A stretch of DNA of 64,000 nt from Citrobacter sp. Cu233. Lineage in GTDB: Bacteria; Pseudomonadota; Gammaproteobacteria; Enterobacterales; Enterobacteriaceae. Positions 10,762 through 37,070 of the stretch are shown piece by piece. Under the pieces are notes generated by a model. It ran no database searches, was not told where the DNA came from, and saw nothing but the letters and a program-made list of their open reading frames with translations. Position 1 is the first letter of the stretch. Every line of letters begins with the position of its first letter. The position numbers and the translations under genes were made by a program. The DNA lies in contig NZ_JAOWIF010000035.1 of the NCBI RefSeq assembly GCF_030332225.1, positions 124,001 through 188,000 on the forward strand. Direction: 5' to 3'.

Positions 10762-11363
10762 GATTATGGCCATTGCTCCTGCTGCTCGTCAGCCCTTTCG
10801 TCAGCGCTCTGACGCTCGATGCCCTGCAACAGCGTTTTACCGAACAACCGGTGGTTCGCGCCCACTTCGATCAAACCCGGACGATAAAGGATCTGCCGCA
10901 GCCGCTGCGATCTCAGGGCAAAATGTTGATCGCCCGCGACCAGGGTTTGTTATGGGACCAAACAGCTCCGTTCCCGATGCAGTTGCTACTGGACGACAAA
11001 CGGATGGTTCAGGCGATTAACGGTCAACCACCGCAGACCATCACCGCGGAGAATAACCCGCAAATGTTCCAGTTTAATCATCTGCTACGGGCGCTATTCC
11101 AGGCAGATCGTAAGGTGCTGGAACAAAACTTCCGCGTGGCGTTTGCAGACTTAGGGGACGGTCGCTGGACGCTACGCCTGACACCAATCACCACACCGCT
11201 GGATAAGATTTTTGCGACGATTGATTTAGCCGGAAAGACCTACCTGGAGAGTATTCAGCTCAATGATAAGCAGGGCGATCGCACCGATATCGCGCTTTCC
11301 CAACACCAACTCACGCCAGCGCAACTGACCGATGACGAACGCCAACGCTTTGCCGCCCAGTAA
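10758..11363 (+). CDS. apeL: LolA-like outer membrane lipoprotein carrier ApeL
   Basis: The 201-residue product has a clear Sec signal peptide (MRLWPLLLLLVSPFVSA), then a LolA-type half-barrel domain beginning LTLDALQQRFTEQPVVRAHF. LolA-like proteins carry hydrophobic molecules through the periplasm. With the MMPL protein ApeM it probably ferries the lipid-like polyene to the outer membrane. It begins at the ATGA overlap with apeK. Confidence 0.88.
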   Translation: MRLWPLLLLLVSPFVSALTLDALQQRFTEQPVVRAHFDQTRTIKDLPQPLRSQGKMLIARDQGLLWDQTAPFPMQLLLDDKRMVQAINGQPPQTITAENNPQMFQFNHLLRALFQADRKVLEQNFRVAFADLGDGRWTLRLTPITTPLDKIFATIDLAGKTYLESIQLNDKQGDRTDIALSQHQLTPAQLTDDERQRFAAQ

Positions 11364-13650
11364 ACGCCCCACGCTGTTATGGGGAGCCGCCTGCCTGATT
11401 CTGCTGGGCATCTTGCTGGCGCTGCTACCTCAGGCCCGGCTTAACAGCAGCGTGCTGGCAATGTTGCCAAAACAGACACTGGGGGCCATCCCTCCGAGTC
11501 TGAACGAGGGTTTTATGCAGCGCCTTGACCGGCAATTGGTCTGGCTGGTGAGCCCCGGTAAACAACCGGACCCGATGGTGGCGCGCGACTGGCTGGCTCT
11601 ACTGCAAAAATCTCACGCGCTGGCCGAGGTAAAAGGCCCGATGGATGCCAACAGCCAGCAGGCCTGGGGGGCTTTCTTCTGGCAACATCGTAACGGCCTG
11701 ATAGATAAAGACACCCGCGCCCGTCTGCAAAACGGCGGCGAAGCGCAGGCTCAGTGGATTCTGTCCCAACTTTACTCTGCGTTCTCCGGCGTTAGCGGCA
11801 AAGAGCTACAAAACGATCCCCTCATGCTGATGCGCGGCTCGCAGTTGGCCATGGCTAAAAATGGGCAGCGTTTACGCCTGATGGACGGTTGGCTGGTCAC
11901 TCAGGACGAGCAAGGCAACTACTGGTATCTGTTACATGGCGAGCTGACCGGCTCATCGTTTGATATGCAACAGACGCACCAATTGGTCACCACGCTGAAT
12001 ACGCTGGAAGGTGAGCTCAAAGCCCACTATCCGCAGGCGCAACTGCTGTCTCGCGGGACGCTTTTCTACAGCGATTACGCCAGCCAGCAGGCGAAACAGG
12101 ATATCTCGACCCTCGGCATAGCGACCGTGATCGGGGTGCTCCTGCTCATCGTGGCCGTGTTTCGTTCGCTACGTCCGCTGCTGCTGTGCCTGATTTCAAT
12201 TGGTATTGGCGCGCTGGCGGGAACCGTCGTCACGCTGCTGATTTTTGGCGAGCTCCATCTGATGACGCTGGTGATGAGTATGAGCATCATCGGTATTTCC
12301 GCCGACTATACGCTCTACTATTTGACCGAGCGGATGGTGCACGGTGCAGAAACATCGCCATGGCAAAGCCTTGCCAAAGTACGCAATGCCCTGCTCCTGG
12401 CACTACTGACCACCGTGGCAGCTTATCTGATTATGATGCTGGCCCCCTTCCCCGGTATTCGCCAGATGGCGGTATTCGCGGCGGTGGGTCTGAGTGCCTC
12501 GTGTTTGACCGTCATTTTCTGGCACCCATGGCTGTGTCATAAGTTGCCGGTGCGCCCGGTTCCGGCAATGGTACTCATGCTACGCTGGCTTGCTGCCTGG
12601 CGGCGGAATAAGAAATTATCCGTTGGCCTGCCGGTGGCTCTGGCGTTGTTCTCACTGGCAGGCATGGCGACGCTACGCGTAGACGATGATATCTCCCAGT
12701 TACAGGCGCTGCCGCAGGGCATTCTCGCTCAGGAAAAAGCGATTACCGCTCTGACCGGGCAAAGCGTCGACCAGAAGTGGTTTGTCGTGTACGGAAAATC
12801 CGCGCAACAAACGCTGGAGCGACTGGAAGCCTTTACTCCCGCGCTGGAAGAGGCAAAAAAAGACGGCTTACTCAGCGGATATCGCACCATTCCGTTAAAT
12901 TCGCTCGCCCGGCAGCAGCAGGATCTCACCCTGTTAAAAGATGCCGCGCCCGCCGTCACACAGGCCTTAAACAGCGCCGGACTGGTAACGGTGAAACCCG
13001 ATCTTAGCGCCATGCCGGTCACCGTCGATGCCTGGCTTGCCAGCCCGGCCAGTGAAGGTTGGCGCTTGCTGTGGCTGTCGCTGGCGGACGGCGAAAGCAG
13101 CGTACTGGTTCCCGTTGAAGGAGTGAAACAAAGTGATGCTTTAAACACACTCAGCACGAAATATTCCGGCGTTGCGTGGGTGGATCGTAAGAGCAGCTTT
13201 GACAATCTGTTTGCCCTTTATCGCCATATTCTGACTGGCTTGCTGTGTGTTGCACTGACGGTAATTGCCTGTGGTGCCATGATTCGACTTGGCTGGCGTA
13301 AGGGCTTAATTAGCCTGGTACCCTCAGTGTTATCTTTAGGTTGTGGTCTGGCGGTACTGGCCCTGAGTGGTCATGCACTCAACTTGTTCTCGCTGCTGGC
13401 ATTGGTGCTGGTACTGGGGATTGGCATTAACTACACGCTGTTTTTCAGTAATCCACGCGGTACGCCACTGACGTCGCTACTGGCTATCACGCTGGCGATG
13501 ATGACCACGCTCCTGACGCTCGGCATGCTGGTCTTTAGCGCCACTCAGGCAATCAGCAGTTTTGGCATTGTGTTAGTGAGCGGTATTTTCACTGCATTTA
13601 TGCTGTCACCGCTGGCGATGCCAACGAAAAGAGAGAAGAAAAAACGATGA
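11332..13650 (+). CDS. apeM: MMPL/RND-family exporter ApeM
   Basis: This 772-residue membrane protein has the MMPL architecture: one N-terminal helix, a large periplasmic domain (about 40-245), five to six helices, then a second copy of the same pattern from about residue 420. It is related to HpnN and mycobacterial MmpL lipid exporters. It likely extracts the aryl polyene lipid from the inner membrane and hands it to ApeL. The ATG at 11332 overlaps apeL by 32 bases. A TTG at 11350 is an alternative start that would shorten the overlap. Confidence 0.86.
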   Translation: MTNANALPPSKRPTLLWGAACLILLGILLALLPQARLNSSVLAMLPKQTLGAIPPSLNEGFMQRLDRQLVWLVSPGKQPDPMVARDWLALLQKSHALAEVKGPMDANSQQAWGAFFWQHRNGLIDKDTRARLQNGGEAQAQWILSQLYSAFSGVSGKELQNDPLMLMRGSQLAMAKNGQRLRLMDGWLVTQDEQGNYWYLLHGELTGSSFDMQQTHQLVTTLNTLEGELKAHYPQAQLLSRGTLFYSDYASQQAKQDISTLGIATVIGVLLLIVAVFRSLRPLLLCLISIGIGALAGTVVTLLIFGELHLMTLVMSMSIIGISADYTLYYLTERMVHGAETSPWQSLAKVRNALLLALLTTVAAYLIMMLAPFPGIRQMAVFAAVGLSASCLTVIFWHPWLCHKLPVRPVPAMVLMLRWLAAWRRNKKLSVGLPVALALFSLAGMATLRVDDDISQLQALPQGILAQEKAITALTGQSVDQKWFVVYGKSAQQTLERLEAFTPALEEAKKDGLLSGYRTIPLNSLARQQQDLTLLKDAAPAVTQALNSAGLVTVKPDLSAMPVTVDAWLASPASEGWRLLWLSLADGESSVLVPVEGVKQSDALNTLSTKYSGVAWVDRKSSFDNLFALYRHILTGLLCVALTVIACGAMIRLGWRKGLISLVPSVLSLGCGLAVLALSGHALNLFSLLALVLVLGIGINYTLFFSNPRGTPLTSLLAITLAMMTTLLTLGMLVFSATQAISSFGIVLVSGIFTAFMLSPLAMPTKREKKKR

Positions 13651-14315
13651 GTAAACCGATATTTCGTTGGTTGAGTGGGCTTTTGCCGGATGGCGGCATT
13701 GCCGGCCAACCTCAGCACATCAATGGTAGGCCGGATAAGCGCAGCGCCATCCGGCGGGGCCTGCTCGTCGCCACGTTGCTGCTGGCCGGATGCGGCCACT
13801 CGCAGCCAGAACAGAAAGGCCGCCCGCAAGCCTGGTTAGAGCCGGGCGCACGTGTGACGCTACCTGCTCCGGGAATTTCTCCCGCAGTGAATTCACAACA
13901 GCTGCTGACCGGAAGTTTTAACGGCAAAACTCAGTCGCTGTTGGTCATGCTTAATGCTGATGATAAGAAAATCACACTGGCCGGGTTGTCATCAGTTGGC
14001 ATTCGCCTGTTCCTCGTGACGTACGATGAAAAAGGATTGCACACCGAACAATCGATCATCGTTCCGCAACTGCCGCCTGCCAGTCAGGTGCTGGCTGACG
14101 TGATGCTCAGCCATTGGCCAATTAGCGCCTGGCAACCGCAATTACCTCAAGGCTGGACGCTTGTCGATACGGGTGATACACGTGAACTGCGCAATAGCCG
14201 CGGCAAACTGGTCACGGAAATCACGTATCTGAATCGAAAAGGAAAACGCGAACCGATCAGCATTGAGCAGCACGTTTTTAAATACCACATCACCATTCAA
14301 TACCTGGGTGACTGA
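13647..14315 (+). CDS. apeN: DUF3261-type lipoprotein ApeN with REP-expanded signal region
   Basis: The 222-residue product has a lipobox LAGC, but the cysteine is at about residue 49 instead of the usual 18-25. The extra stretch (about 27 residues from PDGGIAG to RRGLL) is encoded by a REP/BIME palindrome pair. Deleting it would leave a normal signal peptide, MSKPIFRWLSGLL joined to VATLLLAGC. RRGLLVATLLLAGC can still act as signal core. The mature part is a DUF3261-like domain seen in APE clusters, probably at the outer membrane. The ATG overlaps the apeM stop (ATGA). Confidence 0.82.
   Translation: MSKPIFRWLSGLLPDGGIAGQPQHINGRPDKRSAIRRGLLVATLLLAGCGHSQPEQKGRPQAWLEPGARVTLPAPGISPAVNSQQLLTGSFNGKTQSLLVMLNADDKKITLAGLSSVGIRLFLVTYDEKGLHTEQSIIVPQLPPASQVLADVMLSHWPISAWQPQLPQGWTLVDTGDTRELRNSRGKLVTEITYLNRKGKREPISIEQHVFKYHITIQYLGD
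13684..13756. repeat. REP/BIME pair inside apeN
   Basis: GCCGGATGGCG at about 13686-13696 and its reverse complement CGCCATCCGGC at about 13745-13755 frame the element. The right half, from GGTAGGCCGGATAAGCGC on, is a full REP read on the minus strand; the left half is a partial REP. The copy is in frame with apeN and changes its signal peptide. Confidence 0.85.
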
Positions 14316-37000: not shown

Positions 37001-37070
37001 GCCGGATAGCGGCTATTGCCTTATCCGGCCTGCGTTCAATATGCCCGGTACGCCTTGCGCTATCGGGCAT
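37001..37070. repeat. BIME after dtpB
   Basis: GCCGGATAGCGGC to TTATCCGGCCTGCG (37001-37034) is a REP, and ATGCCCG with CGGGCAT (37041-37070) forms a second hairpin. It separates dtpB from the convergent Rrf2 gene. Confidence 0.85.

Follow-up and report, generated by a model that had tools for sequence, protein, structure and literature searches.

How can a repeat that is normally extragenic become part of a protein without breaking the gene? This question is raised by apeN, a lipoprotein gene in a 64,000-nucleotide (nt) stretch of the Citrobacter sp. Cu233 genome (hereafter the window). An inverted pair of GTAG-type repetitive extragenic palindromic (REP) sequences, which together form a bacterial interspersed mosaic element (BIME), lies in frame at positions 13685-13755, in the n-region of the ApeN signal peptide. 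It is very probable that the REP pair was inserted in frame, is read as part of the n-region and is cleaved off, leaving mature ApeN unchanged. The pair is 71 nt long and touches 25 codons. The features concerned are the following.

11332..13650, plus strand: apeM-like MMPL/RND transporter gene (open reading frame; Pfam MMPL, PF03176)
13647..14315, plus strand: apeN, DUF3261 (LolB-like) lipoprotein gene encoding 222 amino acids (aa) (open reading frame; Pfam PF11659, E = 2.6e-39)
13647..13684, plus strand: start codon to left REP, 38 nt, with TTTT immediately before the REP; codons 1-12 and part of codon 13
13685..13710, plus strand: left REP in inverted orientation; an in-frame deletion makes it 6 nt shorter than in C. 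gillenii
13711..13725, plus strand: BIME linker
13726..13755, plus strand: right REP, GTAG plus palindrome with a perfect 7-bp outer stem (cmsearch 55.7 bits, E = 3.2e-9)
13758..13793, plus strand: hydrophobic core and lipobox (GLLVATLLLAGC), assigned from sequence and hydropathy, with Cys49 as the expected lipidated residue

The right REP shows the GTAG and the imperfect palindrome of 20-40 nt that characterize REPs. The covariance model that scored it was trained on 28 distinct REP strings from elsewhere in this genome, the window copy excluded. At up to three mismatches the genome holds 37 copies (the right REP and 36 others), a high copy number as in other REPs and BIMEs, and a reversed-pattern control gave 0. 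Two inverse REPs joined by a linker make up a BIME; the pair is intact in C. gillenii, and its left half is decayed in the window. The folding energy of the BIME is -44.6 kcal/mol (z = -4.7) in the window and -57.0 kcal/mol (z = -7.0) in C. gillenii. Rfam gave no match at the apeN REP site. The copy is a REP by sequence and an exception by place, as it is not extragenic. The original prediction, made from the sequence of the window alone, had placed a REP pair in the N-terminus of ApeN, and the model score and the genomic copies bear it out.

The insert is lacking in E. coli and in most orthologues examined. E. coli apeN is 585 nt long (194 aa) in all five loci fetched and takes 21 codons to reach the lipobox Cys, compared with 49 in the window. 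The net difference amounts to 28 codons (84 nt), of which 71 nt are the REP pair. It had been predicted that orthologues lack 81 bases with flanks intact. Uninserted E. coli orthologues do exist, but the difference is not exactly 81 bp, nor can the flanks be called fully intact, since some 13 nt of the difference are non-REP sequence and the surrounding patch is recombinant (see below). Similarly, REP codons are found in the N-terminus as predicted, but the pair is shorter than the roughly 27 codons proposed.

By sequence, the window ApeN retains the features of a lipoprotein signal peptide. A basic n-region of 37 residues (net charge +5) ends in RR directly ahead of GLLVATLLLAGC, close to the prediction of about 36 residues with RR before the core; the core has a mean hydropathy of 2.57 and is followed by a lipobox, recognized as [LVI][ASTVI][GAS]C. 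The net charge of the n-region ranges from +3 to +8 in 16 REP-bearing alleles and from +1 to +3 in nine uninserted ones, a comparison that excludes L104 and L030 as possibly decayed inserts. These two alleles have unusually long ApeN signal peptides (34 codons to the Cys in L104 and 45 in L030) with no recognizable REP.

Beyond codon 1, the window offers three further in-frame starts, all TTG, at codons 9, 13 and 44. The first two precede the REP or touch its edge, so that codon 44, five codons ahead of the lipobox Cys, is the sole canonical start behind the REP. In the alleles of wls619 (L009), L160 and Kluyvera (L019), no ATG, GTG or TTG is found behind the REP. Translation of these three alleles must therefore enter upstream and read through the REP, unless other codons initiate. 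These results bear on the proviso of the original prediction that proof of a start behind the repeat would count against it.

We propose that the 5′ end of apeN received a copy of a REP pair just 3′ of the overlapping apeM stop, or that the pair entered the apeN of a relative whose patch was later acquired. The ribosome would enter at the overlapping ATG at 13647 and run the open frame across the 25 REP-touched codons as a basic extension of the n-region. Sec and signal peptidase II (SPase II) would then handle an ordinary core and lipobox, with the cut falling before Cys49. Since the REP-coded segment precedes the lipobox, SPase II should remove it; the REP-coded residues would be discarded and mature ApeN should stay the same, which may be why the REP is tolerated. 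A stop codon occurs in just one of the six consensus-REP frames; most of the other five carry Arg, which suits an n-region. Together with cleavage, this could explain why the insert persists. Judged from sequence, ApeN is probably expressed, lipidated and cleaved, the insert is probably nearly neutral, and its mobilization by a REP-associated tyrosine transposase (RAYT, TnpA-REP) would have occurred in an ancestor.

Several observations weigh against this reading. The TTG at codon 44 does sit behind the REP in the window allele, though within the hydrophobic core, and several further REP-bearing alleles have ATG, GTG or TTG in or beside the core. The part of the 84-nt difference that is not REP sequence also has to be accounted for. 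Finally, a search of the host genome with PF01797 gave no ordinary RAYT and one match only, within a histidyl-tRNA synthetase-like fusion.

Does the same genome translate REPs elsewhere? None of the 36 other genomic REPs was found within a Pfam-supported coding part. REPs are covered by eleven open reading frames of 90 aa or more; of the nine that were scanned, two had Pfam families (ribonucleotide reductase small chain and UvrD helicase), although a missing Pfam match is no proof that a frame is not a gene. In both, the REP lies in an in-frame 5′ extension ahead of the domain, and presumably also ahead of the gene start. The prediction that an extragenic element has here become an in-frame part of a signal peptide, with the lipobox unharmed, is therefore upheld by the orthologues, the start codons and the absence of other REPs from coding parts.

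The original prediction concerned this one gene. In the wider family the insertion is common to several genera, the junction took different REPs, and the patch around them moves by recombination. Loci of apeN were drawn from 53 contig loci, from eight of 17 genomes of the genus (one of them a weak match) and from 131 of 392 genomes of the family. The family survey gave 132 apeN places in these 131 genomes, of which 30 were included as loci, 80 more were fetched and the 22 lowest-scoring were left out. In the set of 53 loci (345 kb altogether, most loci being 6.6 kb long), 14 REP-model matches (E up to 1) were found in nine loci, all at the apeM/apeN junction. In 100 further loci, 20 of 20 matches were at the junction, 62 of these stretches being only 1.1 kb long. 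The model was run without L062, L069 and 18 loci (L164-L181). The REPs of C. youngae (L012/L063), L050, L082 and L160 were judged REP-derived by eye rather than by the model, and L147 and L079 are weak matches (E = 0.05 and 0.26). Across Enterobacteriaceae the junction carries at least four REP arrangements, three of them intragenic with halves read in different frames and one intergenic. Distances are counted behind the A of the apeN ATG.

Type 1: left REP 38 nt behind, read LLPDGG; the window, wls619, C. gillenii, G005, G251, Klebsiella indica and G149, with half copies in G076 and G017
Type 2: REP 21 nt behind, with AGWR encoded by the left half; two Kluyvera, G241, C. youngae (a single REP) and G367 (decayed)
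Type 3: REP between the genes, apeN start shifted downstream; Pluralibacter, Cedecea and three others
Type 4: REP of the GTAGGGYGGA sub-family, 33 nt behind; G080 and G202

The right REP half occurs in two frames among type-2 alleles, as in type 1 in G241 and otherwise in Kluyvera and G367. The frame from the former overlapping ATG has stayed open in Pluralibacter. In L034, L036, L031, L038 and L050, a REP lies between apeM and apeN, and a GAGGT-type sequence precedes a new apeN start shortly after the REP. Matches to the short GTAGGGYGGA pattern number 146 in G080 and 167 in G202. The sister alleles of these two genomes (L147 and L160) carry REPs of two sub-types (GTAGGGCGGA and ATAGGGTGGA) at this same distance, each with its own matching stem as judged by eye, which could reflect compensatory change or REP replacement. 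It is also worth recording that L016 (Citrobacter sedlakii), whose ApeN signal peptide has 18 codons, falls close to two type-2 alleles in the tree (support 87) and has TTTTTGCC where type-2 REPs start. It may belong to a lineage from which the REP was deleted.

We then compared the patch that holds the signal peptide and the REP with its flanks. Between the window and C. gillenii, the patch differs at 5 of 129 positions and the flanks at 175 of 957 (P = 4e-6). Between the window and C. youngae, the flanks differ at only 55 of 958 positions, whereas the patch shows large gaps and 22 changes at 72 alignable positions (P = 9e-10). No such contrast is seen with wls619 (patch 7/129, flanks 92/958, P = 0.14) or K. 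indica (35/129 and 190/958, P = 0.06). Ten allele pairs were tested in this way: the patch is strongly more alike than the flanks for the window with L010 and with L067, the reverse holds for the window with C. youngae, and the other seven pairs gave P values from 0.015 to 0.88 in both directions. As the window resembles C. gillenii in the patch and C. youngae in the flanks, a stretch of about 130 bp holding the signal peptide and the REP was probably exchanged between lineages. By megablast, the window patch has no near match in E. coli genomes. A 29-nt pattern containing the linker occurs once, at apeN, in four of eight genomes and is absent from the other four (up to three mismatches). Gene conversion by a second copy of this BIME can therefore be rejected: where the REP-plus-linker core is present, it is found only at apeN, which excludes copying from another genomic site as the cause.

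How many times the junction gained a REP is a separate matter. In a tree of the flanking proteins with 127 rows, the types are scattered and 13 changes are needed. Rows with less than 60% identity or with no recognized lipobox were dropped, L067 and L150 were left out, L123 was labelled "none" despite a contig as long as that of the REP-bearing Cedecea locus L050, and duplicate assemblies across two collections were merged only if identical. In approximately unbiased (AU) tests, type 1 as a single clade was not rejected on the full tree (P = 0.303). On a 38-row subset, chosen after seeing the tree, it was rejected (P = 0.021), as were types 1 and 2 together (P = 0.009), and type 2 gave P = 0.056. 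Since patches recombine, scattered types may reflect transfer instead of new insertion. Independent origins within type 1 are thus not proven, and we claim four arrangements rather than a number of insertions because the AU results are mixed and recombination alone could produce them.

The translated BIME could alternatively be a selected RNA element at the apeM/apeN boundary, acting on apeN translation or mRNA decay, with the extra peptide as a by-product. We consider this possible but rather unlikely; it is compatible with insertion and cleavage as proposed above, and both may hold. The folds are strong in the window and in C. gillenii, and the frames vary by type, yet most alleles have a stem that is visible by eye. 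A single synonymous change separates the 27 REP codons of C. gillenii and G251, whereas 47 of 144 mature codons differ (41 synonymously and 6 otherwise); at the nucleotide level, 1 of 77 positions in the REP and 112 of 956 in the flanks are changed (P = 0.002). Among four full-length copies, 3 of 20 paired third positions vary, compared with 65 of 150 in mature apeN (P = 0.015), and 5 of 60 paired columns vary, compared with 5 of 17 unpaired ones (P = 0.037). With six copies, however, paired and unpaired columns behave alike (P = 0.30), the contrast vanishing because the left REP is decayed in the window and wls619. That decay itself argues against selection on the hairpin, as does the fact that L082 and C. 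youngae have each lost one half. In the comparison of C. gillenii with K. indica, divergence is higher in the patch as a whole (31/135) than in the flanks (137/957, P = 0.015). The counts are small, come from about three lineages only, and concern pairs picked after seeing the data. Stop-proximal REPs are described as exerting translational control within 15 nt (Liang 2015, as cited in PMC12306157), but the apeN REP begins 34 nt past the apeM stop. A function of the hairpin is thus weakly indicated, and the comparisons are suggestive at most.

A broader version, which we hold to be doubtful, is that REPs are captured at the junction again and again because it is advantageous to have a hairpin just past the apeM stop. 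The element would then be a translated regulatory hairpin that preserves its stem but can change its frame and peptide, and whose patch of about 130 bp is exchanged between species. If this were true, then with overlapping genes the hairpin could be kept only by translating it within the discarded n-region of a signal peptide.

It seems very unlikely that ApeN translation starts behind the repeat and that the REP is 5′ untranslated sequence. Di Nocera et al. suggest such a start for most REPs at the 5′ ends of open reading frames in C. koseri, P. putida and S. maltophilia (PMC3733652), and the five loci L031, L034, L036, L038 and L050 show a REP ahead of a downstream ATG with its GAGGT-type sequence. 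For the window allele, the start-codon inspection given above rejects it: the window offers only the TTG at codon 44, in the hydrophobic core, and a protein started there would have no n-region and hardly any core. The alleles L009, L160 and L019 do not offer even that.

There is also very little to favor a shift of ApeN from Sec to twin-arginine translocation (Tat), in which the repeat would have made a Tat-like signal (RRxLL, from CGG CGG at the REP end). A long n-region and RRGLL or RRCLL right before the core are seen in the window, L009, L010, L067 and L075, but the RR pair is missing in other REP-bearing alleles (e.g., L011, L077, L081, L019 and L078) and the core is strongly hydrophobic. 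The window signal peptide does not satisfy the full Tat consensus, and we regard the motif as weak. Lastly, a chance palindrome or a sequencing or assembly artefact can be dismissed as next to impossible, given the genomic copy count, the covariance-model score of the right REP (E = 3.2e-9 against a same-genome model), z values of -3.9 to -4.7 over the fold tests, the intact C. gillenii copy and the recurrence of the insert in orthologues from separately sequenced genomes (wls619, C. gillenii, G005, G251, Klebsiella indica and G149), because of which an assembly error is not the explanation.

In-frame insertion and removal with the signal peptide thus remains our preferred reading, and it has precedents, as both intragenic REPs and repeat-derived signal peptides are already published. 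GTAG/CGTC REPs and REP dimers have been described inside open reading frames, where dimers or grouped repeats encode 20-30 aa, and N-terminal intragenic REPs were noted in several species including C. koseri, whose cases were judged mostly non-coding (Di Nocera et al. 2013, PMC3733652). The apeN copy is likewise GTAG-tagged, a REP dimer and within an open reading frame. It differs in lying in a cleavable signal peptide, in having three alleles without canonical downstream starts, and in that the apeN start carries different REPs in several lineages, although apeN might be among the cases tabulated in that paper. A second parallel is provided by the Rickettsia palindromic elements (RPE), which Ogata, Claverie and colleagues reportedly found in protein genes. 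Most RPEs stay in the mature protein. R. conorii proteins with an N-terminal RPE-1 are described as expressed in vivo (PMC3733652). As with RPEs, a small palindromic repeat is inserted in frame in a protein gene; orthologues lack the segment, and the frame is intact to either side of it. RPE-1 is a different and longer type of palindrome, and the apeN insert should be removed. In Yersinia, an RU-2 repeat is reported to form part of the signal peptide of YPO1552 (Delihas 2007, PMC2759123), as the REP does here. According to that account, RU-2/YPAL is a different family of 168 bp with one signal-peptide case, whereas the apeN junction has several REP arrangements. Finally, the apeN BIME resembles the intercistronic BIMEs of enterobacterial operons in its REP sequence, its inverted pair and its place behind an upstream stop. 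Intercistronic BIMEs are untranslated, but that of apeN is read because the ATGA overlap of apeM and apeN leaves no untranslated gap. A search of one open-access literature collection for aryl polyene together with repetitive extragenic palindromic sequences returned no joint report, and the work there that mentions such sequences along with in-frame signal peptides deals, by title and opening of the abstract, with other subjects; this is no proof of novelty.

These results point to a route by which an extragenic repeat may enter a protein at little cost, namely by landing in a part that is cleaved off. The natural alleles (no REP, half REP, full BIME, different frames) make both neutrality and the action of a translated hairpin testable in one operon. 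They also call for caution in gene calling, as the apeN start might be moved wrongly.

The nearest named relatives of the window genome at the apeN locus are Citrobacter. ApeN of the window scores 134.6 bits against PF11659 (cut-off 22.3), and the TGA of the apeM-like gene (13648-13650) overlaps the apeN ATG as ATGA. A match to the apeN locus was found in 809 of 5,426 E. coli genomes, where the annotated neighbors of apeN include MMPL and beta-ketoacyl-ACP synthase, the context of an ape cluster. E. coli ApeN is described as a LolB-like protein of the aryl polyene cluster, encoded beside the RND transporter ApeM and the LolA-like ApeL (PMC8253772).

Concerning REP mobilization, the biology of TnpA-REP is treated in PMC8266576. 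The single PF01797 (Y1 transposase) match in the genome covers the N-terminal part of a 612-aa open reading frame (L218, 1462-3300; G000:C22 near 155.5 kb) that lies directly downstream of a hisS-like one. The C-terminal part matches histidyl-tRNA synthetase (PF13393), so that a transposase-like domain is here joined to a second synthetase-like domain. Its HUH motif appears degenerate, as judged by eye. The window has eight other REP-model matches (E up to 0.71), all outside the main open reading frames of at least 150 aa. Five of the eight begin 7-14 nt after the stop of a main open reading frame, and one, at 37001, is covered by a mechanically called 161-aa open reading frame antisense to one of 490 aa.

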